Shown here: piece by piece, positions 10,384 to 64,000 of the stretch
How positions within the stretch are numbered: position 1 is the stretch's first letter
How the letters are laid out: each line of letters begins with the position of its first letter
Origin: Tricholomella constricta
Taxonomy: Eukaryota; Basidiomycota; Agaricomycetes; Agaricales; Lyophyllaceae
Assembly: GCA_013368375.1 (NCBI GenBank)
Contig: JAACJP010000021.1
Location: forward strand, 124,001-188,000
DNA length: 64,000 nucleotides
Reading direction: 5' to 3'
The notes under the pieces: model-generated
Told to the model about the DNA's origin: nothing
Database searches by the model: none
What the model saw: the letters and a program-made list of their open reading frames with translations, nothing else
Made by a program: the position numbers and the translations under genes

Positions 10384-12088
10384 TCAAAAGAACATCGTTT
10401 CCCCAATATCACAAACCCCAAACGCCCCATCCTCAATCCCAATCTTCCTACACTCCTCCGCCAAGCGCTTTGGCGGCTCAAGTACATCTTCCGTAGTCAA
10501 CACCCATGTCCTAAACAAAAACCCAAGCGAATAAGCGATTGCGATGCCTCACCCACAAAAAAAAAAACAAAGAAAAAAAAAAACAATGAATGACATACGC
10601 CCAATGCATACCCAAAGCCTTCTTCGCCTTTATATCCTTAAATATGCGGACACTATCCTGCGGCGCGCAGTGTATCGGGGACATGTACTGACGCGGCTTG
10701 TACGCCCTAATCACGATCACGATCACGAGGAAAAAGATGAGACAACAACAACCTCCTGTAAGAACGAAAGAAAAAAAACACCTACCCAATGGGAATCATC
10801 GCAAACTCGAAACCCCCAAACCGCGCGCCGATGTCCTTGAAGACGGGGCACGTCGGGACTGTGTCCTCGTCCTGGTCATTCAGGACCGCGCGGTACCCCG
10901 TGTCGCCCCCGAAGAACACCTTCACGCCCTTATCGTTGTCGTTGTTGTTGTTGTTGGCAGGAGCGGGGACGGGGACGGGGACGGCAGGTGGCAGGCGTAC
11001 TTCCTCGACGACCCAGCTGGCCCAGAGAGTCTTGAAGCGATCAAACAAGGAGCGGCCAGTAAAGTGCTGCGCGGGGGTGCACGTAATCGCGACTGTGACT
11101 TTGTGTGGGCCCGGACCCTTATCCTGTCCGGAGGAGGAGGAAGGCGCGACCTCGACGCGCTTCGAGTCCCACCAGTCCATGAGATGCACATGGCTGTCGG
11201 GGACGCCGAGAGACCTGAAGAAATAGGCATTACCTAGGGGAGCGAAGAAGTGTGGGGTGCGTGGGCGTTGGGATAGGATTTTGATGGTATGGGTATCGAG
11301 GCTAGAGAGAGAGAGAGCCGTCTGGGGTTGAGAACGCTGCTGGTAATTTGCGAAAAGTGGGAATTGGAGGCTTACTGGTCATAATGGTTATGCTGTAAGA
11401 ACACCATCGAAAATGAGAAAACGCAACAATCAACAAGAGGAGCGGGAGCCTCAAACTGACCGAAATGACAACAGCATCCACTTCTGGTATATCTTCAATC
11501 TTGCAGGGCGGGGCTGGGAGCAAGGTAAGCGCAGCCCTGTGGGCCAGACACGGGACTTGAACGTACGTGTATACCGCTTCGGGCCGATCCACTGGCTGGG
11601 CGAGCACCTATCGCTAAACACCGGATCGAACAGAACTCGAGCTCCCCGTCTTCCAGCGTCCGAGCGCGAAGGCAGCTCGACCAGGAAACACGCATGGCCC
11701 AGCCACGTGGCCGTTATCTTGTCCTTCACGTTCTCCTCCTTGGATTCTACATCCACAGCGCCCCAGGTAGGTTTGCGGATGGGTATAAGGCCTTTCACCT
11801 CCTGTGAAACCCTCGGGAACGTCGGAAGTATCGACAGGAGCTTGAGATAGATAGATGGTAACGTTCAGCGCCTGGAATCGAGAAGGTTATACGGTCCACA
11901 TGGATATATACACGTACGTGTAGCGTGTCCATGGCGCCGTGGGGTCTGAAGCTGGGCCATGGGTTGTGGAAGCCCGAGCAATCAGGATCGTCCCAGTGTT
12001 CAGGCTTGCTGTTGATGTTGGCCTCTACATCTGGAGGGGCCTTCTTGGGGTCGATATCGGTGACGAGGATGGAGGAGCTCGAGGTCAT
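10384..12088 (-). CDS. NAPE-PLD-like metallo-beta-lactamase-fold hydrolase
   Basis: The gene starts at ATG 12088 (MTSSSSILVTDIDPKK) and ends at TGA 10384-10386; at least five exons. The metallo-beta-lactamase core is visible: TWLGHACFLVELP (~11700), VLFDPVFSDRCSPSQWIGPKR, EDIPEVDAVVIS, then across introns the metal-binding motif HNHYDHLDTHTIKIL (~11390-11270), APLGNAYFFRSLGV, VTITCTPAQHF-like near 11080, FFGGDTGYRAV (~10910) and PRQYMSPIHCAPQDSV (~10670). The last exon (10384-10504) encodes ATWVLTTEDVLEPPKRL and ends ETMFF. These blocks match N-acyl-phosphatidylethanolamine phospholipase D, which releases N-acylethanolamines from membrane lipid using two metal ions. The final intron is T-rich (10505-10600). 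Downstream repeats contain decayed copies of the last exon. Confidence 0.9.
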
Positions 12089-12433
12089 GATTGGTAGAGG
12101 GTCTGGGGATGGTGATGAAGAGACTTTATACTGAGCACTGATACTGAGCAATGGTCATGGTCGACGACCAGGTGTGACGTATGCGTTGCCGGCAACACGG
12201 CAACACGGAAGAGCCGCGAGGCTCGAGCGCCATCAAATTGGGATTTGCCATCAGAGATTCAGAGTCGTATGTTGATCCTCTGGTACTTCTTCCCGATAAA
12301 GACTTAGTCTAGTCTTCTTGGCAGAGGTTTTGGCGGACGGGTCGATTCGGCCTTCTCGGAGTATCATGTAAGCTAGAAATTGATCACGTTTCGTGAGATT
12401 TCCGGAAAGGACAGTTCACGTCGCGTCGTAAAT

Positions 12434-14693
12434 ATGTCTGCCGAGGCAGATACGCCGCCTCACTCATGGCGGTCAATCGAGGGTCGTACACGGATTCGCG
12501 GTATTATGGAGGCACTCATGCCGCAATGGAGAAATGGGCCTCGCGAGTTTCAAGTGGATGTCTGGGCAAACATCCTTGATAGGATTGCTGTTCTTCTTAT
12601 TGCCCACACTGGCGGAGGCAAAACGGCTGCGTTCTGGGGACCAGTTCTTATTATGCAGCATCTACTACAGTTCGCTATTCCCGGAGTGCCGGCACCACCC
12701 TCTAAACCTGTTGGAATTATTGTGACACCTCTTGTAGAGCTGGGAAATAACCATGTCAGTCAATTTACGCGATATTGCATCCATCTGGAGCTCACCTTTG
12801 CCACAAAGGCCCGTGAAATCAACCAACTGGGCATAGGGACCATCACAGTTAATGCCGAGACTGTCCGAGAAGCGGTTGCCGAAGGTCGAAACCTGTATTC
12901 AGAAGTGCGGCACTGCAAGTGGTCAATCGTGCTCATATCCCCCGAGAGACTGTTGACACCCGAACTTGATGGGGTCCTGCGCAACGAATACTTTCGGAAA
13001 AATGTCGTCCTGCTCGGTGTTGACGAAGCGCATGTCCTCAATCCATGGGGTGAGGGTTTTCGACCTGCGTACAAACAAATCAATGCTCTTCGACGACGTC
13101 TACCCACCCACTGTGTCCTCGTGGCTGTCACCGCAACGCTAAGCCCAGGTAAAGACTACGATTCTCTCTGCGGGGCACTTGACCTGAAGCCCGGTCGATT
13201 TCATTGCGTGCGACTGTCTTCGGAGCGGGTCAACGTTCGTCCTGTCCTAGTTGAGCTACGGCACACACTTACAGGATGGGACTTCCCTGACATCAAATGG
13301 GTCTTTTTGACGCCGGGAATAAAAGTCATCGTGTATTGCGCGACACTGGATCTGCAAATGCGCGTGGCATTGTATGGGTGGAATCAGCATGAGATCGGAC
13401 CAGCACGTCTCGAGAAGGTCAGGTTGTGGAATTCAATGACCTCACCTACATATAACGAGCGCACACTGGATCTTTTCCATCACAACCCTGAAACTCGTGT
13501 TATTGTCGCCAGTGTCGCCTTTGGGCTGGGGATGAATATTCGCATCATCACGGACTCGATTAATCTTGGCATACCTGATACTGTTGAAGCTCTGGTTCAG
13601 CAAAATGGCCGAGCTGGGAGGGACCTCGAGATGGATGCACATGGGTGGACGTACATTGAATCTGCAGTTGTATTGTCGGTACAGGAAGATCTTGATGAAG
13701 GAGCTGTGGTGGGATTTGAGGACGGCGTATTGCCGAAGAAGAAGAAGGCGAGGTCGAAAGGGAGGTCCAGACGGGTGGTGGAGGCAAAGATGAAGAGGTT
13801 CATCGCTGCACACTTGCAGGGACGATGCATTGTCGCTGAGCTAAACGTGATCCTCGGAAATCCTGGAGTTGATGCGCGGTTATCGTGTGAAGCGGCTGGA
13901 AGGCGCCTTCCATGCAGCTCGTGTCAGCCGTTCTGGAACAACCCTGCGCCTGCGCCAATGCCTCAAGGATATGTTGTCCCTGTAACCCCACCATCTGCCA
14001 GTTCGAGGAGGCCACGTCCGCTCACCAAAAAACAACGTGCTCACACTCACGCCCACCTTACATACTTTGCCGAGAAGCGGACTTTGGTGAAGGACACTGC
14101 ACGCTCACGCTACGCTCCGACTGCAGAATTTTGGGCTGGAACAGAACTTGATCTAATCCTCGACAATATGCATCTTCTGAATGTGAAGGAGGGCCTCAAC
14201 GCGATGTTGAGTAAGTGGCAGTACCTCGCAGATGATGGAAACATGTTACACCTGTTGATTAACGGGTTAAACGCGCAATACGACGCCCTTGATCTACAAG
14301 CGAAGGCCACCCAAGCTAGACGGGCAGCAGCAACTCGAGCAGTAAAAAAAGGTGTGGCCGTCTTCATTCTTCACTATCTATCTCGAGTATAACAACTCCT
14401 TTTTAGCCACGCAAGAGAAGGAAAATGTGCCGCCAACCACTGAGCTCATGCCTGCCAGCAAACTCCCCCGTTTCACTATCCGAATACCTGCCCGTAAACC
14501 TGTTCTCACCTCGTGTTCGATCGAAAACACTGCCGACTTCACAGGGAATTCATTCTTGTCTCCCGAATGGGAGCCTCCACCTGTGGCATCATTATCGGAG
14601 CCCGTGAGACTGCCAGCATCGAAGCACCTACTTGATGAAGCTTCAAAGCATACTCCGAGTCAGTCTAGCAACAAAAGACAGCGTCGTTTGTAG
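12434..14693 (+). CDS. RecQ-like DEAH-box DNA helicase of the TIR element
   Basis: Two exons (12434-14351 and 14407-14693) join in frame to give 734 residues. The helicase core has Walker A AHTGGGKTAAFW (~residue 65), motif Ib-like VTPLVELGNN, motif II VDEAHVLNPWG, motif III VTATLSPG, and C-terminal motifs VASVAFGLGMNIR and QQNGRAGRD. It lacks obvious RQC and HRDC domains; instead the C-terminal third carries a basic KKKKARSKGRSRR stretch and a Cys-rich DARLSCEAAGRRLPCSSCQPF patch, like the zinc-binding region of RecQ proteins. It ends in NKRQRRL, a likely nuclear signal. Family role: ATP-driven 3'-5' unwinding. As part of a mobile unit it may act in excision or copying; that is inference. 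Confidence 0.85.
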
Positions 14694-14725
14694 AATGTGA
14701 GTATATCATTCTTGACGCAATCATT

Positions 14726-17700
14726 TCAAAGCTTACCAGTCCGTTCTGTGACGTAGAGTTTGTCGTTGATGATTCTTATTCGTGGTAAATCTCTCCTTGT
14801 GTTATCAGGGACTTCACTGCGCTGACTGTCCTCCCAATTGTCATCACCGCTACTCTCCATCTCTACATCAGCTTGGGCAGTGTGATGACCGAGAATATCC
14901 AGGTATGCTGTCGTCCGTGCAATGAACTTTGTAATCTTCTGACGGAGAATCCTCCAGCCCTCTTCGAAGTCGTCTATTGCTGTGAATCCTTCATTGCGGC
15001 CGGGTCGATATCGATTTACTTCTGCATCCCGTAAGCATGCCAATAAAGCCCGAAGCTCATTCAATAGATCTGTGACGGAGTGATTTTTGGTCCGCAACTT
15101 GAGTGATACAGCCTCTTCCATCTCGTCACGTAAACGTGTCAGATGGTGCACATTCATTGAGACTGTGTCCCTGTAGAACAGATCATCAAATTCCTTTCCT
15201 TTGTGCTGAACCTGCTCTTCTAGGACACGATTATGACCCTCCTGCATGAGGTCCATCTCGGAGTAGTCCCCGAGCTCGTGCAGGCATACCAGCCAGTTCG
15301 ACATGATGGAATTGCTTGTGGCTTCGTCAAATTCCCACTTGAAGTTGCAGTATAGCTCGAGAAGGTACTGGGAATAGTACGGATTCCCGCTTCCTGCAAA
15401 GGTGAAGATCCATATCTGTTTTCAATGAGAAAATGTTCACAACGAAGTAATTAGGTGCGTCACTTTGAGGATCTCCCAAACTCGACCAGTATCACCTTCT
15501 GCAACTGCTCGACACATTTCTCGCCACCAGATACCGTCGCGCATAAAGAGCGTCGCGTTCGCCAGGGTCACGTCAGCATCCTTTGATGTCAGCTCTTTTA
15601 CTTCATCAAGTAAATCTGACATGACATCAGAGTCTGTGTCTGTCATTTCGTCGCCTTCTACTGTGTCTAGGCTCGTGCTCGGGATGTTCTTTTTTGGAGT
15701 CCACGGAGAACCTTGAGGCACCTTGTCAGGGTTATTCTCGCTAGGGTTATGGGCAGCCTTGAAAGCTTTTGTCGTTGCATGGCGTCGGCCGAGCATCAAT
15801 GCAGCCTTGAGAAGTTCCTCGAATGTCGGGAGTGTACCCTGTGCCTTCTTGCTTTCAAGGAAGCTCTCTAAATCCGCCGTCTCGTAATAAAATCTGGGTT
15901 GAGGTTCGTCATTCAGTGTGTTACATAAATAATAAATGGAATTAATCGGACGTACTCCCAGCAGTTGAGAATATGTGCGTCCAATGAGAGCTCGATCAAG
16001 TGTGCTCCATCATAGAACTCAACTTTCCGAAGGTTACTGGGCGTTGGACATCCAGCAAGTTTTGCGAGACACGCCAACGTTGACGGGTCATCTGCATGAC
16101 CCTCTCCCCAATGGCCACGCACAGTGCGGCTCAGGTCTGTCCATTTCGTGTGCCAAAGTTCGAGAAGAGGTATTATCCATCGAAATGACTCGAAATCTCC
16201 ATCCTCCGCAACCATGTGCCTTCGTAGCTTCAGGAGCTGCTCGAAGGTCTTCCCATCCCCAGAGGTGACGATACACCGGCCGTTCAAGTTCCCTGCATCG
16301 ATTCTCATCTGATCTGTAAAGTCTAGGACAGCTTGCTTCATTTCCTGGATATGCATCTCGTCATAGCCATTTGTCGCCAGAGGAAATATCTTGGTGTGTC
16401 GGGCTTTTGGCAGTGGAAAAATACAAAGCTTCTCTGATGCGTAGACCTTCAGATCCTCACGATAAATGGAGAGGGCTGGCATGCAGTGGATTAGCGGCCT
16501 AATAAACTCCACTTCTCTGACATGATCCTGGTGAGTCCAATCGATGTCGTCAAATATCAGTTCCGGTGAAAGGTTCCTCCGCTCCTGTAGGGCCTGGCGG
16601 CGCAGCAATTCACCTAGGTCAAATGCTCCAGGAACGACGTCTTCCATAATCACAACAGTAGCAGCAAGTCCCTTGACCATGCGGCTCTCACGACCGATTC
16701 GAGCATCACGCACGGGTGCATATGCCTGGATATTGTCGCTGACCTGTAGACCATGGCGTCCGTTCGCGATCATCCCCCTCAACTCTTTGCGCTGGTCGGC
16801 GGCGAGAGTTTTCAGTCCTTCAATCATGGTTTGATAGGCAACGGAATGCCCTAACCGACTTTCCACACGGTAGGCACTCTGATGGGACCGAACTGCAAAG
16901 TGCCAGATTGCCCGACAGAGTGGATACAAGCTCGCAAGCTGCGATCGACCGAAGGTGAGTGACATCACGGCACTTGTGGCGACCTTATTGAGTGTCAGTT
17001 TGCACTAATAAAAAATGAATGGTAAGCCTTACGAGGTTCTGTGGCCGTTGTTCGCGAAGCGGGGCTGTCTCTCCCATCTCCACAGCTGTCGAGTTTACGT
17101 AGGCAGACACGATAGCCCATAGAATTGGTGCGTTGTTCTCAGCTATTGTTTGAAGGGTACGATAGCTGAAAGATTCTATTGCAGACCAGCTGATCAAGCT
17201 TCTTGGCTGCTTCGATCTTGCGCGAAGATGCAGGCCTGTCGTTGGATGAACCATCGTGCCCCCCTCTGAATGCACAAGTTTCGTAACAAATCCCACAGCC
17301 CAGCTCGTGATAGCTGGTTTCGCATGCGTGATCTGCGCGAAGTGGCGGTCTGGTGTGAAAGTCGGTGCCGAAACAGCATTGTCATTGCTACGGTATGTGA
17401 CTTCACATGCATATTCGTATATGAGATCTAGGATTTGGCCTGCATGGGGTTTCGAAGTTCCATTGAGGAAAGCCTGGACCATATTTCGCTGTTGAGATGT
17501 CGGAGGGTTTGCACCAGTAGTCCGTTTCATAGAGGGAAGATCGTTGTACGTGAAGAGTGCCTCAAGGAATTTAGGAAGTGTCCAGTTGACCTCCTTGATT
17601 GCGCTGAGAATGAGCTCGACCTTGTCACCATCCTTCAATGCAGGTTTTCGAGGTGTTTTGCTAGTGCTCGATGCAGGTGTCCCAGGCTCGGTAGCAATAT

Positions 17701-17752
17701 TTCCTGGCCTCTGAGGTGTCAAAAGCAGAGGAGGGTGATTATTATAAGTCAT
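14726..17752 (-). CDS. DUF6589-type protein of the TIR element (candidate transposase)
   Basis: Four exons (17752-17033, 16983-15956, 15893-15464, 15415-14726) join in frame to 955 residues. The C-terminal half has the blocks I associate with DUF6589: ELWHTKWTDLSRTVRGHWG, FYYETADLESFLESKKAQG, EMCRAVAEGDTGRVWEILK, IWIFTFAGSGNPYYSQYLLE and MDLMQEGHNR. Acidic residues in conserved-looking strands (SDNIQAY, VTSGDGKTFEQLL, LMQEGHN) would be reasonable candidates for an RNase H-fold DDE triad, but this is a guess from spacing only. The N-terminal 240 residues are unassigned. Convergent with the helicase; the pair fills the whole element between the inverted repeats. A GTAAGC just before the stop might be a donor for a further exon, which I could not place. 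Confidence 0.8.
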
Positions 17753-17927
17753 CACAGGCCTTTAGAGCGTTCAGCGCAGGTGTACGGCTCGAGTACGCTT
17801 AGGATTAGTCCACAAAAGTTTAATCTTATCAAGAGATCTTGTACACGTGAGCATTGAAACTGTGCTTTAATGCCGACTTAACGCCGAATTGACCCGTCAG
17901 CCAAAACCTTTGCCAAGAAGAGCAGAC

Positions 17928-18750
17928 CTTATATAACAGATCGACTGTCATCTGTACTAAGGTCGGCTACCGGAGACTAATAAAGACTTTCCGCGACATG
18001 TACATCACAGACCTAAGCACATCCCTCGTCCTCGAACCAGCACCTCACATCCAGTTGCGCATGTCAGGGTAAGTACTTTCATTTTCGTCTTCGCTTTTCA
18101 ATCTACAATTGCAAGTGTCAGTGTCATTGTCAAATACTGCAAGCGAAGCGTGTGCGATCATGATGGCTGCGCACAAGCCTTTATGTTTTCTCTTCTACTT
18201 TTGGCGTTATCTCGCGACAGTCACACACACAACCACCCACAACTCGTGGCAAGTACGGATGACATATCCTCGCGTCCAGTTAATATAATTGGTTGTGTCC
18301 GACACGGGCACATGCGCCCGTTAATCTCCAGCCAAAACTAGAATCCACTTGCGTTCTGAATCTGGAGCCCTCCACTGCGATTCCCGGTCGAGCTCCGTGC
18401 TCTGTGCTCTTCCTCCTGTGCTTTATTCTGAGACTCTTCATAGCTGCATAGCTTCCTACGCGCTTGCACGGATGCCGTTAAGGAAATAAGGGCTCTTTCC
18501 CAAAATGCAATAATGGACACGAGGCACGACCCTCACGATGCCCGCTAACAGCCTAGAGTCCCCTCAACGTGGCATCAATGAACTATCTATCATCCATGGC
18601 AGTTTATAATACACGGCACGACAAGGTCGTGCCCACGACCCATCATCGCATAAGATACTTCTATAAAAATCGCAGCTCCTCGAAGCACCCATATCTCATT
18701 CACCCATATCCACCACCCACCACCCACCAGCCAGGCATAAGAGCCTCAGA
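17928..18750. other. Intergenic region; nothing recognised beyond a possible promoter
   Basis: Between the right end of the TIR element and the next plus-strand gene. CTATAAAAA at about 18660 lies about 90 nt before the ATG at 18751 and could be its TATA box. No coding pattern was seen elsewhere. Confidence 0.35.
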
Positions 18751-30900: not shown

Positions 30901-31549
30901 ATACCTCGGGCATGTCCCAGCTGTATACGCAAGCCGAGTTCCTTGAGGGTCATCTTCTCATAGAAGGAGCCATTCCATCGCTACATAATATGGAAATTAG
31001 CTGAGTGCCGCTGCTACGCTGCAAATTAAACCTACACGGATCCTGTGGAAAGGGCTGACAGAGTGTTGGCTGACAATGCACCCTCGGCAGTGCAGTTGGC
31101 GATTGAAGCAATCGAGGCACTCGAATTCGACAGGGTTCTTCTCGATTCCTGAACACCTGAGGCAGACATCCATTGGCGCTTCCCCCCGGCCCTCAAGAGT
31201 TATCATCTCCTCCAGGTACTTTTCACGGTGCGCGAGCCATACCCTCATTGGCTCGTCCTGGATTGATCCTGAGCATTAAAAAAAAAGCACGATGAAGTTC
31301 ACGTACCCCAGCTGTACGCCTGCGCCCTCCTGTTTCGACAGATATCTCCTCAAGATGATCGATGTATGCTGCATCGAACATTTCCTCCTCTTCGCCAAGT
31401 AAAGCTGGAAGCTCCGAGCCAGCGTCATGAGTTGTATCAATGAGGGAGGTTTCTGTTGAAATAAACGAAGTGGAGACATGGATATGGCCCCCGGTGCCAG
31501 TGTAGCAGGTGCTTCGATGTTTTGTAGTCAGAGCAGTGGACCGCCGAGG
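27948..31549 (-). pseudogene. KDZ transposase with CxC2 cysteine cluster, main body (disrupted)
   Basis: Multi-exon minus-strand gene ending at TAA 27948. Family blocks from the N-terminal side: GGRRRTAG (~31310), CxC2-type cysteines in DVCLRCSG, FECLDCFNRQLHCRGC and QHSVSPFHRI (~31190-31040), KMTLKELGLRIQLGH (~30940), LDFCGCG (~30810), first acidic strand LFLGIDANFRLKRKD (~30280), TIECARHNMKRPRAVGDLQ (~29970), AYDIACQW (~29800), KFHLPAHVAQC (~29690), and GRTDGEAAERGWAEVNPLA (~29600), which supplies the likely catalytic Glu. Two lesions are seen: an LTR retrotransposon in the first exon at 31550, and an in-frame TGA at 28675-28677 between NLQI and SYLYRFKDR. The enzyme would have been a DDE transposase for this element; it is now probably dead. 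Confidence 0.88.
29061..29061 (-). other. Internal exon region of the KDZ transposase (28.9-29.5 kb)
   Basis: Between the catalytic core and the C-terminal coiled region, introns and exons alternate and I could not fix every border. Coding frames are interrupted by plausible short introns, so this point marks uncertain structure rather than a separate gene. Confidence 0.3.
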
Positions 31550-31554
31550 GTGTG

Positions 31555-32051
31555 TGTTAGGGGAACACCTGTTTGGTGATCACGTGACCATCTGATTCCT
31601 CGGACGAGCACGTGACCGACCGCTCCCCAGATGATCGCGATCCCGACCCCGACGCTCCGCCCCAAGCATCGGTGTACATACTTATAACTTCCTGTCGTTA
31701 CTTCCCCTTCCAGCGCGCGCCCGATCCCGATTCCCGACATCCCGACGTCGGTCATCCGACCTCGTGCGCCTGCACCCTGAGCCACGAGGATCGGACAGCG
31801 TCGGGAACGTGTACATACACGCGCCGCTGCCCATCCGTTATCATTTACGTACCATACACCCCAGAGAGCCGGCCCTCAAGTAGTTACTCGTATATAGTCA
31901 TCCTCCTGACATGGGGGAATCCTTTACTCTATTCTCATTGGATTCCCCTCTGCCAGGTAGGTCTACTTACGTTCTCTCTAATCGTACATAATATAACATT
32001 GGATTCCCCTCTGCCAGCACGACTAAGCTCTGCGCTGAGGTCGCCCTAACA
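31555..32051 (+). repeat. 5' LTR
   Basis: 497 bp, TGTTAGGG to CCCTAACA. A TATA box (GTATATAG) lies at about 31890. Transcription would then start about 31 nt downstream, near 31922, just before TTACTCTATTCT, which is complementary to the sequence just after the LTR. Confidence 0.95.
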
Positions 32052-32053
32052 GC

Positions 32054-32065
32054 AGAATAGAGTAA
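32054..32065 (+). promoter_or_regulatory. Candidate self-priming primer-binding site
   Basis: AGAATAGAGTAA, two bases after the 5' LTR, is the exact reverse complement of TTACTCTATTCT at 31924-31935 in the LTR. The latter lies where the transcript should begin (about 31 nt after the TATA box). Tf1/sushi-type elements prime reverse transcription by such fold-back of the mRNA 5' end. Confidence 0.7.
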
Positions 32066-32178
32066 CTCTAGAAACCCGACGAAGCCGACCGATCCGCTTC
32101 CGCGCCGAAACACGCGTCTGCTACACGCGACCGTCCAACGCGCGCTCGCCCCGATCGCCCGTCCAGTCCCGTTTCGAG

Positions 32179-33393
32179 ATGTCCGAATTTGGTGACATGT
32201 CGCAGCGACCGTTCTCTCCCTTCCTCACGACGGAGGAGCGGTTGGCGAATATGGAAGCCACAATTTCGGCTCTCTCTGCCTCCAATACCTCCAACTCGGC
32301 CTCTATGGACCGCCTCTCCGCTCTTTTCGAAAAATTCATGTCGGGGACACCCCCCAATCCCACCCCCGCTGCTCCCGAAGCAGACACGACCCCCCCGCCG
32401 CCTGAGACGACCACCCCGCTGCCAGGCTCTCCGCGATCGGGATCGCACCACCTCCGACTGTCGCCCCCTCCCATTTACGACGGCGCCCGATCGGGCGGTC
32501 GCGCGTTCTTGAACGCCTGCAAGCTCTACTTCTCCTTGTGCGGGGGAAGTTTCGCCGACGACCACGCCCGAATAGTATGGGTGCTGTCATACATGCAGCA
32601 CGGGCGAGCCGCCGACTTCGTCAGTCGGGTGTTCCAGTTCGGAACCGCCAAGGACGTCTTTCCCGCCTGGAAGGACTTCGAAGACACCTTCCGTGGCGAG
32701 TTCTTCCTCTTCGACGAGGTCGCCGATGCCGCGCTCATCCTGGAGTCGACGGCGTACTTCCAGAACGGTCGATCGATCGACGAGTACATCGACTCGTTCC
32801 GATCCCTGTGGGTCAAGGCGGGCTACCCAGATGGGCGTCACCTGGTCCTCAAATTCCGTCGGGGAATGGACCCGAAGCTCTCGAGGCGACTCGGAAGCAT
32901 CACCACGGGTCGCCCGCACGATGAGAAGATTGAGGAGTGGCTGAGGATCGCTCGTTCTCAAGACTTCATCATGAGGTCGGAGGACGACTTCCACCGTCGG
33001 ATGGTCCCGACAAAGGCGCCCGACAGCCGCCCGCCCACCACCGCAGCTGCACGATGGGCGTTCGCTACTGCCCCCGCTCCCGCTCCCGCTCCCGCTCCCC
33101 CCGCCCCCCGCGCTCCTGCCGCACCAGCCCCCAGGCCGATCCCCCAGGGCATCCCAATGGACGTAGATCGGATGCGCGATCGAGTCGCGCCTGCCGGCGA
33201 CCACTGTTTTCGGTGCAAGAAAAAGGGTCACTACTCTCGTGACTGCCCTTTGCGCTGGGACGTGCGCCACATGCTCGATGATGAGCTGGAGGCGCTTATC
33301 ATGGAACGTCTAGCTCGCAAGGACGCAGTCCCCGCCGACCCGACTCCATCGTCGGCCGACGCGACCGCCTCCGACGCCGAGGAGGGTTTTTAA
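32179..33393 (+). CDS. gag: Gag protein of the chromovirus
   Basis: 404 residues from ATG 32179. The N-terminus has coiled helical sequence (TTEERLANMEATISALSAS), then a Pro-rich linker and the retrotransposon gag domain (about 95-260: PPIYDGARSGGRAFLNACKL, FEDTFRGEFF, SIDEYIDSFRSLW). A CCHC zinc knuckle CFRCKKKGHYSRDC follows near residue 340. The stop TAA at 33391-33393 follows GAG GGT TTT, forming the slippery heptamer G-GGT-TTT, so pol is probably reached by -1 frameshifting. It forms the virus-like particle and binds the element RNA. Confidence 0.93.
   Translation: MSEFGDMSQRPFSPFLTTEERLANMEATISALSASNTSNSASMDRLSALFEKFMSGTPPNPTPAAPEADTTPPPPETTTPLPGSPRSGSHHLRLSPPPIYDGARSGGRAFLNACKLYFSLCGGSFADDHARIVWVLSYMQHGRAADFVSRVFQFGTAKDVFPAWKDFEDTFRGEFFLFDEVADAALILESTAYFQNGRSIDEYIDSFRSLWVKAGYPDGRHLVLKFRRGMDPKLSRRLGSITTGRPHDEKIEEWLRIARSQDFIMRSEDDFHRRMVPTKAPDSRPPTTAAARWAFATAPAPAPAPAPPAPRAPAAPAPRPIPQGIPMDVDRMRDRVAPAGDHCFRCKKKGHYSRDCPLRWDVRHMLDDELEALIMERLARKDAVPADPTPSSADATASDAEEGF
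33384..33390 (+). promoter_or_regulatory. Candidate -1 ribosomal frameshift site
   Basis: G-GGT-TTT in the gag frame matches the X-XXY-YYZ slippery rule and directly precedes the gag stop TAA. Sliding back one base gives GGG TTT TTA ATT and enters the pol frame, which is open from here and has no ATG near its start. Confidence 0.75.
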
Positions 33394-36300
33394 TTACACA
33401 ACGGGTGGAACGTACGCCCCCGTTGTCTAGTCGTAATCGGTTCGCTCCTTTATCCGTAGAATACGCCAATACACCTAATATTGCTGCTATTCCGACGAGT
33501 GAACCGACCGACAAAGACGTACAAAACCCCTCCGACCCGACGACACCAATCGCAGTCGCAAAGCCGATCGCCCCGTCGCGTCGTGGCCTACCCCGCTGGG
33601 AAAAGCGACTCCCTAGTCGCTTCATCGCCGCTGCCTCCCCCTGCCCCAGATCCCTGTGGCTCAACGTCGAACTGGAGACCACCGACACCCAGGAGTCGCA
33701 TGCCGTCACTGCCCTAGTGGACAGCGGAGCGACTGGCAGTTTTCTCAATGTTGCTTTCGTCGAGAAACACAAGCTCACAACCAAGGTGCTTAGTCGGCCA
33801 TCCCCGGTTTACAATGTGGACGGCACTCTCAACGAAGGCGGTTCGGTCTCTTGCATCGTAGAAGCTGTCTTGCGATACAACGGTCATACCGAACGAGCCG
33901 TCTTCGGGGTCACCCAGTTAGGCAAGCAAGACATGATCCTCGGGTTCAACTGGCTTAAAAACCATAACCCCGAGATCGACTGGGAGACCAAGGAGGTGAA
34001 GATGAGTCGCTGTCCGACGCAGTGCGGCACCTGCAAGGACGAGGTCAAAGCCGATCGGCGCGCACGCACCAAAGTGCGCGCAGCGATCCGCGCCTGTCGA
34101 GCCGACGGTATACCGATGACTGAGCCCGACCTGCGAGCCCCGACCAACCCGTATGTTGAGGACGACTCTGATGAGGAGGAGTTCCTCCCCTACACCCCGG
34201 TCCTGGAGGAACCTGACCCAGAGTCTGACGACTTCCTGGTGGAAACCTTCCTGAGTGGCGATCGCATCTTCGCGACCGCGATCCATCCGACTCCGACCGC
34301 CGAACATATTCGGGCCAGCCAAACGACATCGCAGCGACTTGCGGAAGCGCACGCTGCTAACTCCGTGCCCAGAACTTTCCGCGACGCAGTACCGACCCAC
34401 CTCCACGACTTTGAAGATGTCTTCTCCAAAGTCGCATTCGATGAGCTTCCAGAGCGCAAGCAATGGGACCATGCCATCGAACTGGAGCCGGGCGCGTCGC
34501 CGACGGGCACGAAGGTCTACCCGCTCTCACCGGCAGAACAGGTCGAACTCGACGCGTTCCTCAAGGAGAACCTCGAGACAGGTCGCATCCGACCGTCCAA
34601 GTCGCCCATGGCGTCGCCGGTCTTCTTCATCAAGAAGAAGGACGGGTCGCTCCGACTGGTTCAGGACTATCGGACGCTCAATGCGCTCACGGTGAAGAAC
34701 CGATACCCGCTGCCCCTCATTAGCGAACTGGTGAATAACCTTCGCGGCGCGCAGTACTTCACCAAGTTGGACGTCCGATGGGGGTACAACAACGTGCGGA
34801 TCAAGGAAGGCGACGAGTGGAAGGCAGCGTTTCGGACGAATCGCGGCCTCTTCGAGCCGCTCGTCATGTTCTTCGGCCTCACGAACAGCCCCGCCACATT
34901 TCAGACCATGATGAATGATATCTTCCGCGATCTGATCGCTGAAGGTGTTGTTTGCGTGTACCTCGATGACATCTTGATTTATACAAAGACGCTAGAGGAA
35001 CACCATCGGGTCACGCGACTGGTACTGGACCGACTCCGCGAACATCAGCTGTTCTTAAAGCCCGAGAAATGCGAATTTGAGCAGACTAAGATCGAGTATC
35101 TCGGGCTGATCATCTCGCAAGGGCAAGCGGAAATGGATCCGGTTAAAGTCGCTGGAGTGTTGGAATGGCCGGCGCCGAAGAACAAGAAGGAGGTGCAAGC
35201 GTTCCTAGGCTTCACCAATTTCTACCGACGGTTCATCCAGGACTTCTCGCACCACGCCCGACCCCTGTTCGATCTGACAGGCAAGGACGTCGCCTGGCGA
35301 TGGGGAGAGTCGGAGCAGTCGGCCTTTGCCCTTCTGAAGTCTGCGATCACATCGGGGCCAGTCCTCATGTTCCCCGACGACGATCGACCGTACCGCATCG
35401 AAGCCGACTCGTCCGACTTCGCAACGGGCGCAGTCCTGTCGCAAGAGTCGCCGTCCGATGGCAAGTGGCACCCGGTCGCGTTCTACTCGAAGAGCTTGAA
35501 CGCCGTCGAGCGGAACTACGAGATCCATGACAAAGAGATGCTGGCGATCATCCGGTCTCTGGAGGAATGGCGACACTTCGTAGAAGGCGCAAAGCACAAG
35601 GTGGAGATCTGGACCGACCACAAGAACCTCGAGTACTTCCTCACCGCGAAGAAACTCAATCGGCGTCAAGCCCGATGGTCGCTTTACCTCGCTAACTTCG
35701 ACTTCGCCCTCCACCACCGTCCTGGCCGTAGCATGGGCAAACCCGACGCGTTATCGCGTCGCCCCGACCATGGCGACGGAAGCGCCGACAACGCCAACAT
35801 CGTGCTGCTCAAACCAGAATTCTTCGCCGTTCGTGCAACTGAAGGCCTTGCACTGGTCGGAGAGGAGGATGATGTGCTGAAAGCGATCCGCAAGGGCAAT
35901 CGCGATGGGGCTCAGGAGGATGCGGTCGCGAAAGCGGCGCAACTGGTCAAAGCATCCAAGATCGCCGGCCGCTCCCTTCGCTTTGGCGAGTGGGGAGAGG
36001 AAGGCGGTCTGCTCACGTTCCGTGGACGGATCTATGTCCCGAACGTCCCAGACCTTCGCCGACGCATTGTGGAGCAGCACCACGACTCCAAGGTCGCCGG
36101 TCACCCCGGTCGCTGGAAGACGCTCGAACTGGTGTCGCGCAACTACTGGTGGCCCCAGATGTCGCGCTTCATCGGTTCGTACACCAGCACCTGTGACATG
36201 TGTCTGCGCACGAAACCTCGCCGCCAACTCCCCGTCGGACAGCTGCAGCCGCTTCCCATCCCCGAAGGCCGATGGAATGTCGTATCGGTCGACTTCATCA

Positions 36301-37424
36301 CCGAACTTCCAGAGTCCAACGGCCACGACGCGATCATGAATGTCGTGGATTCAGTTGGAAAGCGCGCGCACTTCATCGCGTCGCACACGACTTGTTCGGC
36401 CCTGGGAGCTGCGAACCTCTACCGTCGCCACGTCTGGAAGCTGCACGGTCTCCCCGACGCATTCGTCTCCGATCGAGGTCCACAGTTCGTCGCCGAGTTC
36501 ACGCGCGAACTGTACAGACTCCTGGGTATCAAGCTGTCGGCCTCGACGGCGTACCACCCACAGACCGACGGACAGACAGAGCGTGTCAACCAGGAACTGG
36601 AACAGTTCTTGCGAGTCTTCTGCAATGAGCGCCAGAACGATTGGGAGGACCTCCTGCCCGACGCCGAATTCAGTTACAACAACCATGTACATTCGGCGAC
36701 GCAGCAGACCCCCTTCCTGCTTGACACTGGTCGGCATCCGCGCATGGGCTTTGAGCCGCGTCGGGGCGCTTCCAAGAACGAGTCAGCAGACGAGTTCGTG
36801 GAGCGCATGAAGGAAGCACAGGAGGAAGCCAAGGCAGCGCTTTCAAAGGCCAAAGACGACATGGAGCGGTATTACAACCAGCGGCACGCCCCAACGCCCG
36901 ACTACCAGCCTGGCGACAAGGTATACTTGGACGCGACCGACATTTCTACGACCCGACCGTCTAAGAAGTTGTCGCATCGCTACCTTGGCCCTTTCGTCGT
37001 GCAAAGGCGAGTCGGCCCGCTGGCATACCGCCTCCTGCTGCCTCAGTCCATGAAGCGCATCCACCCAGTCTTCCACGTCGTGAAGCTCATCCCCGCCATT
37101 GCTGATCCGATCGAAGGTCGTCGATCCGATCCCCCTCCGCCCCCCGACATAATCGACGACGAACCCCATTACGAAGTTGAAAAGATCCTCGATAGCCGAA
37201 CCTTCCGCAAAAAACTACAGTACAAGGTCCTGTGGAAGGGCTATGGTTACGAAGAAGCTTCTTGGGAACCTCGCGAAAATGTCGCCGCCCCCGATCTGGT
37301 ACGCAAATTTCACCGCGACAACCCCGACGCCCCACGCCACATTCGTGGCATCTTCACTCTATCCCCCGCCATCTTCGCCACCGTCACCCCGCACCGAGTC
37401 GTTGCGATTCAAAAGGGGGGGTGA
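33385..37424 (+). CDS. pol: Pol polyprotein (PR-RT-RNase H-IN-chromodomain)
   Basis: Roughly 1,345 residues in the -1 frame relative to gag, ending at TGA 37422-37424 exactly against the 3' LTR. Domains in order: aspartic protease (ALVDSGATGSFLN), reverse transcriptase (FFIKKKDGSLRLVQDYR; catalytic VYLDDILIY), RNase H (IEADSSDFATGAVLSQ), integrase with HHCC zinc finger (HHDSKVAGHPG, CDMCLRTK) and DDE core (VVSVDFITELPE; SDRGPQF; TDGQTERVNQELE), and a C-terminal chromodomain (YEVEKILDSR, LQYKVLWKGYGYEEASWEP). The chromodomain places it in the chromovirus branch and would target integration to modified histones. The polypurine tract AAAAGGGGGGG overlaps the last codons. No internal lesion seen. 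Confidence 0.95.
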
Positions 37425-37921
37425 TGTTAGGGGAACACCTGTTTGGTGATCACGTGACCATCCGATTCCTCGGACGAGCACGTGACCGACCGCTCCCCAG
37501 ATGATCGCGATCCCGACCCCGACGCTCCGCCCCAAGCATCGGTGTACATACTTATAACTTCCTGTCGTTACTTCCCCTTCCAGCGCGCGCCCGATCCCGA
37601 TTCCCGACATCCCGACGTCGGTCATCCGACCTCGTGCGCCTGCACCCTGAGCCACGAGGATCGGACAGCGTCGGGAACGTGTACATACACGCGCCGCTGC
37701 CCATCCGTTATCATTTACGTACCATACACCCCAGAGAGCCGGCCCTCAAGTAGTTACTCGTATATAGTCATCCTCCTGACATGGGGGAATCCTTTACTCT
37801 ATTCTCATTGGATTCCCCTCTGCCAGGTAGGTCTACTTACGTTCTCTCTAATCGTACATAATATAACATTGGATTCCCCTCTGCCAGCACGACTAAGCTC
37901 TGCGCTGAGGTCGCCCTAACA
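37425..37921 (+). repeat. 3' LTR
   Basis: 497 bp, same as the 5' LTR except CCG (about 37460) where the 5' LTR has CTG, a CpG-to-TpG difference. Starts immediately after the pol stop codon. Confidence 0.95.
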
Positions 37922-37972
37922 GTGTGGATCATGAAAAATTAGCCCATATTTCTTACTGCGACCGCGACCCAT
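37922..37972 (-). pseudogene. 5' end of the KDZ transposase gene, severed by the chromovirus
   Basis: On the minus strand ATG at 37972 opens a basic start (MGRGRSKKYG) that runs in frame to the target duplication at 37926. The same frame continues on the other side of the retrotransposon at 31554. The first exon was therefore one reading frame before the insertion, and the insertion separates the start codon from the rest of the gene. Confidence 0.8.
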
Positions 37973-59418: not shown

Positions 59419-61869
59419 ATGCCCAAGGTAATCTGCAAGTGCAGTGTCTGTAGCAAGAAGACTATGGTGCTGCATGGAGTTCAGCAACCAGGGCAAAAGG
59501 TTGATGCATCCACACGTGCTAGGCATGAAAAGCGAGATGACCAGCCATCTGTGGAGCGAAACCGTCCACGGAAATCAGCACCGATTGAAAGTCAAGCCAG
59601 TCCACCAAAAGGTGAGTGCTAGCAACATTTTAAGTTTTCTAAGTGACACTGAGGATAAACATAGACATTGTCTGGCCTGCTGCTCAAATCATTAAGATGG
59701 TATGCACTTTGATTATCTGGATTCACGTGAGAGCTGGTGTTAGCCGTGTGATCACCAACAAAATTCTGAGAGCTATCCGGCTGATTATTACTACTGTTCT
59801 CTATCTCGTGACTGCTGCACTTGCTTCATCTGGGTTACATGTTAAGCTCTCGACTCTGGGAATTCCTCTTGATGTGCGCACAGCTTATCGGCTGCATTGC
59901 ACAGAACCAGATATTATTCGTACAGCCTGCTGCCCTAAGTGCTTTTCTCTGATTCCTCGTCCGATTCCTTGGACTTGTCAATGGAGAGCCTCTCCCAGAT
60001 CACGTCCTTGCAATACTAAGCTTTGGAAAAGTCAAAATACACAAAAAGGGCCCAAGTGGGTTCCTCACCGGCTCTACTCAACACAATCCTTTGATTCTTG
60101 GCTGCAATTTTTTCTCTCGCGTGAGATCATTGTGGATAGCCTGGAGACAACATTTAAAAATCAGATAAACCGACCACTGGCAGCTTTTGGTGCTGATATG
60201 AATGATATTCAGGATAGTCCTGCATGGATTGATCTAAATGGCATTGCGCAATCACCTTATAATCTTGTTTTTGGGATCTATATTGACTGGTTCAACCCGT
60301 TCACCAACAAAATTGCTGGAAAGCATGTATCTTGTGGTGCAATTGTCCTCTATTGCTTGAACCTGGCTCCACATCTCAGATATAAGCCTGAGAACACATT
60401 CATTATTGGTCTTATGCCTCCACCCAATATGCCAGATGCAACAACGATCTGCCACCTTTTGGAGCCTGTAGTGGCATCTGTTAACAAGTATGCCATGGCG
60501 CCTGACCAACTAGTGCCCACATGTCGACATCAAGGGGGTGTCCATGTAAAAGTAAGGACTGCTCCTCTTATTGCAGATCTTGAGGCTAGCAAAAAAGCAT
60601 CTGGCTTTATGCACCATAGCGCTACCAAATTCTGCTCTTATTGTTTATTGGAAAATGCTCAGATTGAAGACCTTAACCTGCATTCTTGGCGGTTACGAAA
60701 TGGTACAGAAGTGCGAGCACAAGCAGAGATATGGCACCAGCAAATAACAAAAGCTGCTCAAAATGCACAAGCAAAAGCAACTGGTGTTCGGTGGACTCCT
60801 CTGCATTCACTGCAGTACTGGGACCCAGTCAAACATGTTGTGTTAGGCTTCATGCACAACTGGCTCGAAGGTATCTTGCAGCATCATCTCCGAACACTTT
60901 GGGGAATTGGCCGTAGCTTGGATGAAGTCAAGAAAAGCAAGGAAAAGGAAAAGGTCGAGGAGTGGTCTGAGGCTGACTCGATGAACTCTGTTAATGAACT
61001 AGATGATCTTTTTCAAGAGACCCAAGAGACTATTAATTTTGTTCCACGGCAACATACTGTACCTCCAATGTCTCCTTCTCCTGCTTCAGAATCATCTGAA
61101 TCTGACTCCGACTCTACAACGTCATCAACGCCCACGCCAAAAGCTACACCTTATGTTTTCAGTGATGATGATGATGATAGCGATGATGAATATATCCCAG
61201 TGGATACTGCCATAGCTTTTCAATTTACTGATACTCAACTGCAGGCCATTAGACGCAGTATTGCAGATATCACACTTCCAACATGGGTGCAACGGCCCCC
61301 AAGTAATCTTGGAGAACCAAGTCATGGAAAGCTAAAAGCTCGTGAATATCTCACACTCTTCACCTGCATTTTCCCACTTATTGTTCCTGAATTCTGGTAC
61401 CTCCCTGCTGCCACAGAGACTGATCGGGAGCACTTTCACTGCTTTTATCACTTGACTGCAGCAACAAATATCATCTCTTCATTCAAGACCTCTAATGCTG
61501 ATGCTGATGCATATACACAGCATTATATTGGATACCGTGGTGCTATCCAACGGCTTTTCCCCCATGTTCGATCTAAACCTAATCACCACTATGCTATGCA
61601 CAATGGAGCTCTGCTAAAATACTGGGGCCCTCTCGCTTCTTTCAGTGAATTTCCTGGTGAACGCATGAACGGGATGTTGCAAGGCATCAATACAAATCAT
61701 CGACTTCGTAAGTCTCTGAATTCATTTTTATGTGGCCAATATCTGATTGTCATTTGTAGGAGATTTGGATTTTACAATGCTCCGTCAAATGAGTCGACGG
61801 GCACACATCCAAGCTATACTTTATGATGATGCAAATAACAAGGAACTGGTGCATATTTTGGAGCCAGAG
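59419..61869 (+). pseudogene. Tnp2/CACTA-like transposase, 3'-truncated (copy 2)
   Basis: Exons 59419-59611, 59665-61707 and 61760-61869 join in frame. The protein parallels copy 1 block by block: VICKCSVCSKKT, CCPKCFSLIPRPIPWTCQW, YIDWFNPFTNKIAGKHVSCG, ENTFIIGLMPPPNMP, VKHVVLGFMHNWLEGILQHH, LPTWVQRPPSNLGEPSHGKL, NHHYAMHNGALLKYWGPLAS, FSEFPGERMNG, then TMLRQMSRR. It ends at ILEPE where an LTR starts. Copy 1 has about 215 more residues after the corresponding point. The first intron sits at the same place as in copy 1 but here contains stops, confirming it is an intron. The two copies are diverged homologues, not recent duplicates. Confidence 0.85.
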
Positions 61870-62023
61870 TGTAACGGGCGTTACCGAATATGGTAGCGAT
61901 CATTGTTTGTCTTTGTTTATTTCTAAAGGTGCTGGCCATATATAGCCAGCACCTCTGCACACAATCCAATCAGTGGTTGTGTTTAGTTTGGTGTGAACTC
62001 TTAAGTCTAACCACACCCTTACA
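61870..62023 (+). repeat. Putative short 5' LTR
   Basis: 154 bp, TGTAAC to TTACA. Holds a hairpin (GGTGCTGGC at 61928-61936, GCCAGCACC at 61945-61953) whose loop CATATATA carries the likely TATA box, and a second inverted repeat GTAACG/CGTTAC at its very start. The 3' boundary is inferred only from the inverted terminal bases. Confidence 0.55.
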
Positions 62024-62079
62024 GTTTTTTAAACACCCTTACTTCAAGGGAACACCCCTAAAACATTTCAATTCCAAAA

Positions 62080-63651
62080 ATGTCCAACAAAAAGAAGACT
62101 TCGAAACCGAAGCCTTCTGACCAAAACCGGTCGGGATCCGTGGCGCCGGACAATCCGAAGCCGCGAGAAGAGAATCCACCGGGAAGTGGAGTCGCCGGGA
62201 GCGGCGACAGAGTGGAGCCTACGCGTGACGTGGCAAAGTCACACCCAGATGATAGAAACTATCATCTAGAGGACGAGCGCAGCAGCGCTCGACCTCAGAG
62301 CGCTATCTTGACAAGGCCCGTCAGTATCCGAGAAGGAGGCCCCCAGGGGGGACCCGGTTGGAGCGACCGGAAACCCAAAGAGGAACCCGTATCGGGCACC
62401 TCGCAGGAACGCCAGGGCGTGTTTCCTGCGCCCTTCGATAATATATCGAGGAGCTCAGTAAAGATGCGGGATGACGAACATGGTCACCCAGCAATATTTG
62501 GCACCAGTGAACTCACTGATGTGCCCGCATCGCGTTCGTCAAAGATGATGTCGACCGCAGCCCGACGAAATCGCCGGGCTGAGAAGAAACCAGCGAAACG
62601 AGAAAGCAGCGGAACGCTGCCTTCGTCATCTGTGGTGGATGACCGTGATTTATTAGTGGAAAGCATAGTATTAAACATACGGATGTTTAGCAGGGACGGC
62701 ATTATGCCTCCCCGAGATGTGCTAGTTAATCTAGTAAACAACGTGTTTGAAAAATGCGTCGAAGCGACCGGGGGACAATCGGCCCTCCAAAAAGACCAGG
62801 AGATAGTAGTAGAATCCATCGTTCTACAACTAAGATCGGGAAGCCGGAAGGGAGTAACTCCCTCCCGGGCACAGCTCAGCTCTCTTGTGGAAGAGGGGCT
62901 GAGGACGTATGATGAAGTGTTCGAGCAGGTGGAATCACCACTCGTACAGCAGGAACACGAAGAACCATACCGCCAGGTTGTAACCCAGCGGGACGTAGCC
63001 TTACCATCGTTAGATACGATGGAAGCCGTAAACCAAAGTTTGCGGCAGCCTCGCCAGCAAGACGAGACAAGCTCGCAGGCGCGCAGGAGACACGCGGCCT
63101 ACGAACGGGCGATGAACCCACCCAAGGCGGAACCAGCAGCGACTTCATACAGTCGGACCTGGGATTTATCAGGAGAAGGCCCGACGTCATATAAACGAGG
63201 GCCCTCGTGCGACGACGAAATCGTTACGCACTGCGCAGAACTGCCTAGTGGGCGGGTTACCGAGGCGGTGAGAGGTAGCGGACGCAACAGTGTTGCGACC
63301 ACAAGGCCGCATCCAGACCCACGACTGGAGGCGGCGCACCCAGGCGGATACGGTGGAGAGGAGGACAACTCGGAAGCCGAGGAGAACTCGGAAAGCGAGT
63401 TCGAAGGAGGGCACACTAATGCGCCGCCTGCACCAGTGAGACCGGAATATGGGTCCGGTGGGCGAGGAACGACGACGCCACGCCCAACTCACGCTAGCCA
63501 CCCAACGGGCGGCTGGGATGGACGGAGTAATCCGCCGAACAACCCACAGTACTACAGGGGAATACGACTACCTAGTCGTACTACGGGGGAATACGACTAC
63601 CTAGTCGTACTCCGGGGGTACACTATGGAGGAGGCCAGCAGCAGTTGGTAA
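62080..63651 (+). pseudogene. gag: Gag polyprotein N-terminal part, frameshifted
   Basis: 523 residues from ATG 62080 (MSNKKKTSKPKPSDQNRSGS), highly charged and disordered. It has a basic patch (RRNRRAEKKPAKRE) and an internal duplication: LLVESIVLNIRMFSRDGIMP and IVVESIVLQLRSGSRKGVTP with similar helices after each. The frame stops at 63649-63651 just after a 29-bp tandem duplication (63550-63607). Beyond it the other frame continues with the expected gag core, so the stop is a consequence of the duplication rather than the natural end. Confidence 0.75.
63550..63607 (+). repeat. 29-bp tandem duplication in gag
   Basis: Two units starting TACTAC(A/G)GGGG and ending CCTAGTCG, spaced 29 bp, with one difference, then a partial third start TACTCCGGGGG. 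29 is not a multiple of three, so one extra unit shifts the frame. Confidence 0.9.
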
Positions 63652-64000
63652 CTCCACAACGGCCGGTAAGGTCGTTCGGGGCGAGCGGACTGCAGCGCCA
63701 AGGAGAGTATCTCCTGAAAGTGCATGGTCGATACCATGCAACGATTGATGAAAAGTTGGATAGCATTATAGCTATGCAACAGGGAGGAGCGAGGCCTGGA
63801 GCACTGCGAGTGCCCATGCCCGAGGAATATAATGGGGCGCCAAGTATGGAAGAATTCGATACATGGCTATATAGTGTGCTCCGCTGGATGGAGATCAACC
63901 AGCTTGGGGGACAGGACCGGGAGCGAGAGCGAATCTCGTACGCAGGGATGTACCTCAAGGGTGCCGCCGCTGTGTGGTTTACGGACAACGTCGACGGTAT
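63608..64000 (+). pseudogene. gag: Gag core domain continuing in the shifted frame
   Basis: Reading from 63618 gives GGGQQQLVTPQRPVRSFGAS, then PMPEEYNGAPSMEEFDTWLY, SVLRWMEINQLGG and YLKGAAAVWFTDNV, the retrotransposon gag domain, open to the window end. Its frame equals that of the upstream part once one 29-bp repeat unit is discounted. Confidence 0.75.

Follow-up and report, generated by a model that had tools for sequence, protein, structure and literature searches.

Does a helicase gene that lies beside a gene for a DUF6589 protein, with inverted repeats on either side, belong to a mobile element, and if so to which kind? The question was raised by a 64,000-nucleotide stretch of the Tricholomella constricta genome (GenBank assembly GCA_013368375.1, contig JAACJP010000021.1, positions 124,001 to 188,000), referred to below as the window, in which a RecQ-like helicase gene and a DUF6589 (PF20231) gene occupy one bounded unit. 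This unit is mobile: its copies stand at new sites, with defined ends and target-site duplications, and empty sites are present. The bounded two-gene mobile unit proposed in a preliminary description of the window was upheld, on the evidence of copies, duplications, the empty sites of three other insertions, a census of gene pairs and a predicted protein fold. The RecQ-DUF6589 DNA transposon most likely belongs to AcademH, the helicase-bearing form of Academ, to judge by its helicase and its duplications. The reading of PF20231 as a transposase may be the new part.

Element boundaries and target-site duplication

The whole element was delimited from aligned copies at 12305-17979 (5,675 bp, TAGTCT...AGACTA). 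The 48-bp inverted repeat previously proposed as its termini was recovered by repeat search (48 nt, 88% identical); the left repeat (12307-12354, plus strand), also found in other copies, is nearly terminal, and the right repeat (17880-17927, minus strand) was placed by copy alignment 52 bp inside the true end. In nine aligned right ends, which include C58 and C23 (one duplicated stretch) and the diverged C52:12k, similarity continued past the 48-bp repeat and stopped in every case at AGACTA. The right boundary was accordingly moved from 17927, where it had been drawn, to 17979, and the outer 52 bp common to these ends (17928-17979) were added to the unit. Seven aligned left flanks diverged immediately before TAGTCT. 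The tetranucleotide CTTA is present on the outer side of both 48-bp repeats, as had been noted; because the right ends are alike beyond the repeat, the right CTTA is internal to the element, and its interpretation as a 4-bp target duplication was rejected. The true duplication is the 9-bp ATAAAGACT, which copy alignment placed on each flank of the window copy (12296-12304 and 17980-17988).

Copies and empty sites

The genome (44.1 Mb, 118 contigs) was searched with the ends of the element, which gave 14 matches for the left end and 10 for the right. Window-family copies on C7, C1, C9, C21, and C58 are flanked by exact 9-bp duplications of their own, and the copy on C5, 99% alike to that in the window, is without a target duplication. 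The C58 copy is 22.3 kb long and contains repeats resembling long terminal repeat (LTR) retrotransposons; one end of this stretch is repeated at 99.99% on C23, perhaps as an assembly overlap or a second haplotype. A short copy on C9 (861 bp) corresponds to approximately 506 bp from the left of the window element and 353 bp from its right and lacks the middle, and a short copy of the same type on C21 (847 bp) is more diverged. Both seem to have lost their interior by deletion and would depend on enzyme supplied in trans. On C9, the short copy and the end of another family's element are approximately 20 bp apart (L012, 1837-2697 and 2719-8841).

Empty sites were sought by searching the joined flanks of ten insertions, and four places were read and aligned. 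Empty counterparts were obtained for three of the ten insertions (C52, C38, and C1). Those of C52 and C38 were identical at 180 of 180 bases and carried a single copy of the duplication, with further, less similar sites also present, and those of C1, a window-family insertion, were contiguous but diverged sequences on C8 (83%) and C3 (87%). Since each of these insertions is located within repeated DNA, the counterparts are paralogous empty sites. The joined-flank search returned no empty counterpart for the other seven insertions, including the window copy, so that the empty sites called for in the preliminary description exist for three other insertions, one of them diverged and in the window family, and not for the window copy itself.

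Sister families and their ends

At least six families with bounded helicase-DUF6589 pairs are present in the genome, and diverged convergent pairs were detected by protein searches on C2, C52, C38, C9, C19, C35, and C61. Two kinds of copy that had been named beforehand as evidence against the unit do occur, but in a different form: pairs lacking the 48-bp ends belong to other families with ends of their own, and ends without the genes are internally deleted copies rather than a dispersed repeat around unrelated genes.

Over 5.5 kb, C2 and C52 are 99.87% alike, but the two copies occupy separate sites, each with an 8-bp duplication of its own; their ends were based on copy alignment and the empty site. 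Ten loci were scanned for TA-ended termini flanked by duplications of 8-10 bp, which gave a single match enclosing the pair at three (C9, C38, and C35) and no match at the seven others. The C35 ends fall where similarity to C19 stops on one side and similarity to C61 stops on the other. Another family, represented on C6 and C10, has inverted repeats of approximately 156 bp (96%), CAGACT ends, and differing 9-bp duplications; a looser scan returned seven candidates for each of these copies, and the candidate chosen had 8 of 8 terminal matches and bounds the inverted repeat. On C13, a deleted copy is flanked by a 9-bp duplication whose two halves differ at one position.

Duplications of 8-10 bp were present in 14 of the 15 copies that have both ends (seven of the window family, together with C2, C52, C38, C9, C35, C6, C10, and C13). 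Eleven are 9 bp long (one mismatched), one is 10 bp, and two are 8 bp (C2 and C52). Several ends were located by requiring a duplication, and the independent figure is therefore 8 of the 9 copies whose ends were found without this requirement (6 of 7 in the window family, 2 of 2 for C2 and C52). In a control scan, 8-bp matches arose in three of five element-free stretches of the window, and 27 matches were obtained in 200 shuffles; 1000 shuffles gave 77 matches of 8 bp, 22 of 9 bp, and 10 of 10 bp (32 of 9-10 bp). Chance matches of 8 bp being frequent, a lone match of this length is weak evidence for ends.

The subterminal repeat of the window family occupies positions 9-47 from the left end and 59-97 from the right, and a 19-bp repeat in C38 occupies positions 89-107 and 30-48, respectively. 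The C10 ends are nearly symmetrical, C35 has only an 11-bp subterminal repeat, and the same comparison found none in C2 and C9; end asymmetry is thus a feature of two of the six families. Terminal hairpins were scored against a background of 30 stretches (z from -1.7 to 1.7). Signals were obtained at both C35 ends (-4.5 and -2.9), the C38 left end (-4.1), and the right end of the window element (-2.3), the strong hairpins of two other families lying just within the ends at about 2312-2339 of L024 (z -4.5) and about 2273-2329 of L021 (z -4.1). The remaining 8 of 12 ends were within the background range, and hairpins were rejected as a general feature of the ends.

Pairing of helicase and DUF6589 genes

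A census of the genome gave at least 38 PF20231 matches, which were grouped into 17 loci; the halves at 2058k and 2072k of C2, split by a retrotransposon-like open reading frame (ORF), were presumed to be one locus and counted as such. A RecQ-like helicase gene adjoins the DUF6589 gene at 16 of the 17 loci listed. The convergent arrangement, whose recurrence the preliminary description had proposed to check, was found at 14 of them, and the other two pairs, at C6:937k (L025) and C13:468k (L032), are divergent, the gene order being flipped in part of the lineage. For the remaining DUF6589 gene, at C7:612k (L031, 3196-4665), the 8 kb of sequence retrieved contained no helicase, and the gene was searched without success for the first Asp motif and for the Glu motif; to judge by this sequence, it is probably a dead or domesticated copy.

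The two genes and the predicted fold

The helicase gene (12434-14693, plus strand) consists of two exons, 12434-14351 and 14407-14693, separated by an intron at 14352-14406. Its product has Pfam domains PF00270 and PF00271, matches recQ_fam at 1.5e-26, and matches RecQ, BLM, and WRN chains in the PDB, which confirmed a RecQ-like helicase of 734 residues. The DUF6589 gene (17752-14726, minus strand) was spliced by eye, with three introns (17032-17005, 15955-15894, and 15463-15416). The earlier account of two convergent genes was correct in orientation and in the length of the helicase, and the DUF6589 protein, previously given as 955 residues, has a predicted length of 962. Pfam assigned PF20231 to two of the three pieces of this protein submitted and no other family there.

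The fold of the DUF6589 protein was predicted on a paralogue of the window protein. In a second look at the structural search with this model, the 12 best matches were all to Hermes (hAT), Transib, and RAG1, with modest scores and alignments of 8-10% identity. The predicted core appears RNase H-like, with a long helical insert ahead of the last Glu, and so resembles those three enzymes. A helicase gene is not known from hAT, Transib, and RAG1. A candidate catalytic triad, the kind of site for which a fold check had been suggested, is kept at conserved positions, with minus-strand codons for D330 (SDNIQ, 16735-16737), D490 (GDGKT, 16255-16257), and E792 (DLMQEGHN, 15239-15241), the last of which also falls within the range aligned in the structural comparison. 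The DUF6589 protein very probably does the cutting and joining of DNA, and is predicted to do so as an RNase H-like DDE transposase. Together with the pairing census, the DDE-like predicted fold supports the roles suggested at the outset, with the DUF6589 protein as candidate transposase and the helicase as its partner.

The DUF6589 transposase would bind the subterminal repeats and cut at the TAG...CTA ends, and the cut ends would be joined to target DNA with a stagger of 8-10 bp. The helicase might open DNA at the ends or at gaps during excision, strand transfer, or repair, which is the most tentative step, and the short internally deleted copies would be mobilised in trans.

Classification of the element

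The preliminary description knew of no superfamily with this pair of genes. That view was not sustained, as AcademH and fungal Academ copies with recQ_fam are already in print. The paper on AcademH is reportedly that of Kojima (2020, Mob DNA 11:15). In the part of PMC10045372 concerned, AcademH is given duplications of 9 or 10 bp, which the author links to its helicase, and a passage of PMC10799480 describes it as low-copy in Basidiomycota, Ascomycota, and Mucoromycota. The element resembles AcademH, as these passages portray it, in its helicase gene, its 9-10 bp duplications, its low copy number, and its occurrence in fungi including Basidiomycota. A helicase lies beside the putative transposase gene in the window element and at the 16 paired loci; the duplication of the window copy is 9 bp, and 12 of the 14 duplications are 9-10 bp. 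Fungal Academ copies in a passage of PMC6416283 have PF00270 and recQ_fam, as does the helicase here, and their annotation as host genes is common; that passage names neither DUF6589 nor the ends. Putative nonautonomous Academ elements appear in Marasmius oreades in a passage of PMC8290104.

The alternative that fares best is that elements with a RecQ helicase and a DUF6589 transposase make up an undescribed superfamily of their own, AcademH-like only in duplication length and helicase. Its enzyme would be a DDE transposase in the fold class of hAT, Transib, and RAG, and some of its families would have end repeats 50-60 bp deeper at one end than at the other, a built-in asymmetry reminiscent of the two spacer lengths found in RAG signals. 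In its favour, the likeness to Academ is drawn from the helicase and the duplications, one family here differs from AcademH in having 8-bp duplications, and the term DUF6589 was not found in the 5.39 million papers searched. Against it, both the PF00270 and recQ_fam of fungal Academ and the 9-10 bp duplications of AcademH match most families here, and a superfamily of its own is considered unlikely.

A still weaker case is that the helicase is itself the mobile enzyme, or that the pair is of KolobokH type with DUF6589 as an accessory. KolobokH also has a RecQ helicase and is confined to fungi, and in a rhodophyte Kolobok the helicase is on the opposite strand, according to a passage of PMC9587614, so that gene layout alone is not decisive. 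The same source gives Kolobok 4-bp TTAA duplications, whereas the two-gene elements here have 8-10 bp duplications, none of the 14 being TTAA; it also places a C/DxxH motif between the second D and the E in hAT, P, MuDR, Kolobok, and Dada. This motif was absent from the aligned DUF6589 sequences that show a conserved His, in which the preceding residues are [GEQ]xx (GLFH, ELWH, QLWH), with PFHF in L024. On duplication length and motif, KolobokH was rejected, and the candidate triad and DDE-like predicted fold of DUF6589 make an accessory role for it very improbable. MuDR-like elements have 9-bp duplications; a MuDR-like element was rejected on the grounds that Pfam gave only PF20231 on the second gene and that C/DxxH was lacking. 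That both are ordinary host genes lying between repeat ends by chance, for which the frequent annotation of fungal Academ genes as host genes and the lone DUF6589 gene at C7:612k might be cited, is hardly credible given that near-identical copies occupy different sites and bear different duplications, that empty sites exist, and that 16 of 17 loci are paired.

If this reading of DUF6589 is right, PF20231, a family of unknown function, would probably supply the transposase to fungal transposons that bear a RecQ helicase, and DUF6589 genes and many RecQ-like genes of mushrooms could therefore be masked as mobile DNA instead of being counted as host expansions. With several near-identical, recently moved pairs in one genome, the part of the helicase in transposition is directly testable.

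Other features of the window

ORFs on the minus strand at 11451-12151 adjoin the left end, the element having inserted a few hundred bp upstream of them; by eye, we take their product to be phospholipase-like with a metallo-beta-lactamase fold. At 31548-37922, two 506-bp direct repeats (99.4% alike, 5.9 kb apart) delimit what seems to be an LTR retrotransposon of recent origin, and the C58 element contains copies related to it. The end of the window (61858-64000) is approximately 75% similar to a sequence nested in the C1 copy (L011), where it is bounded by a 195-bp direct repeat.
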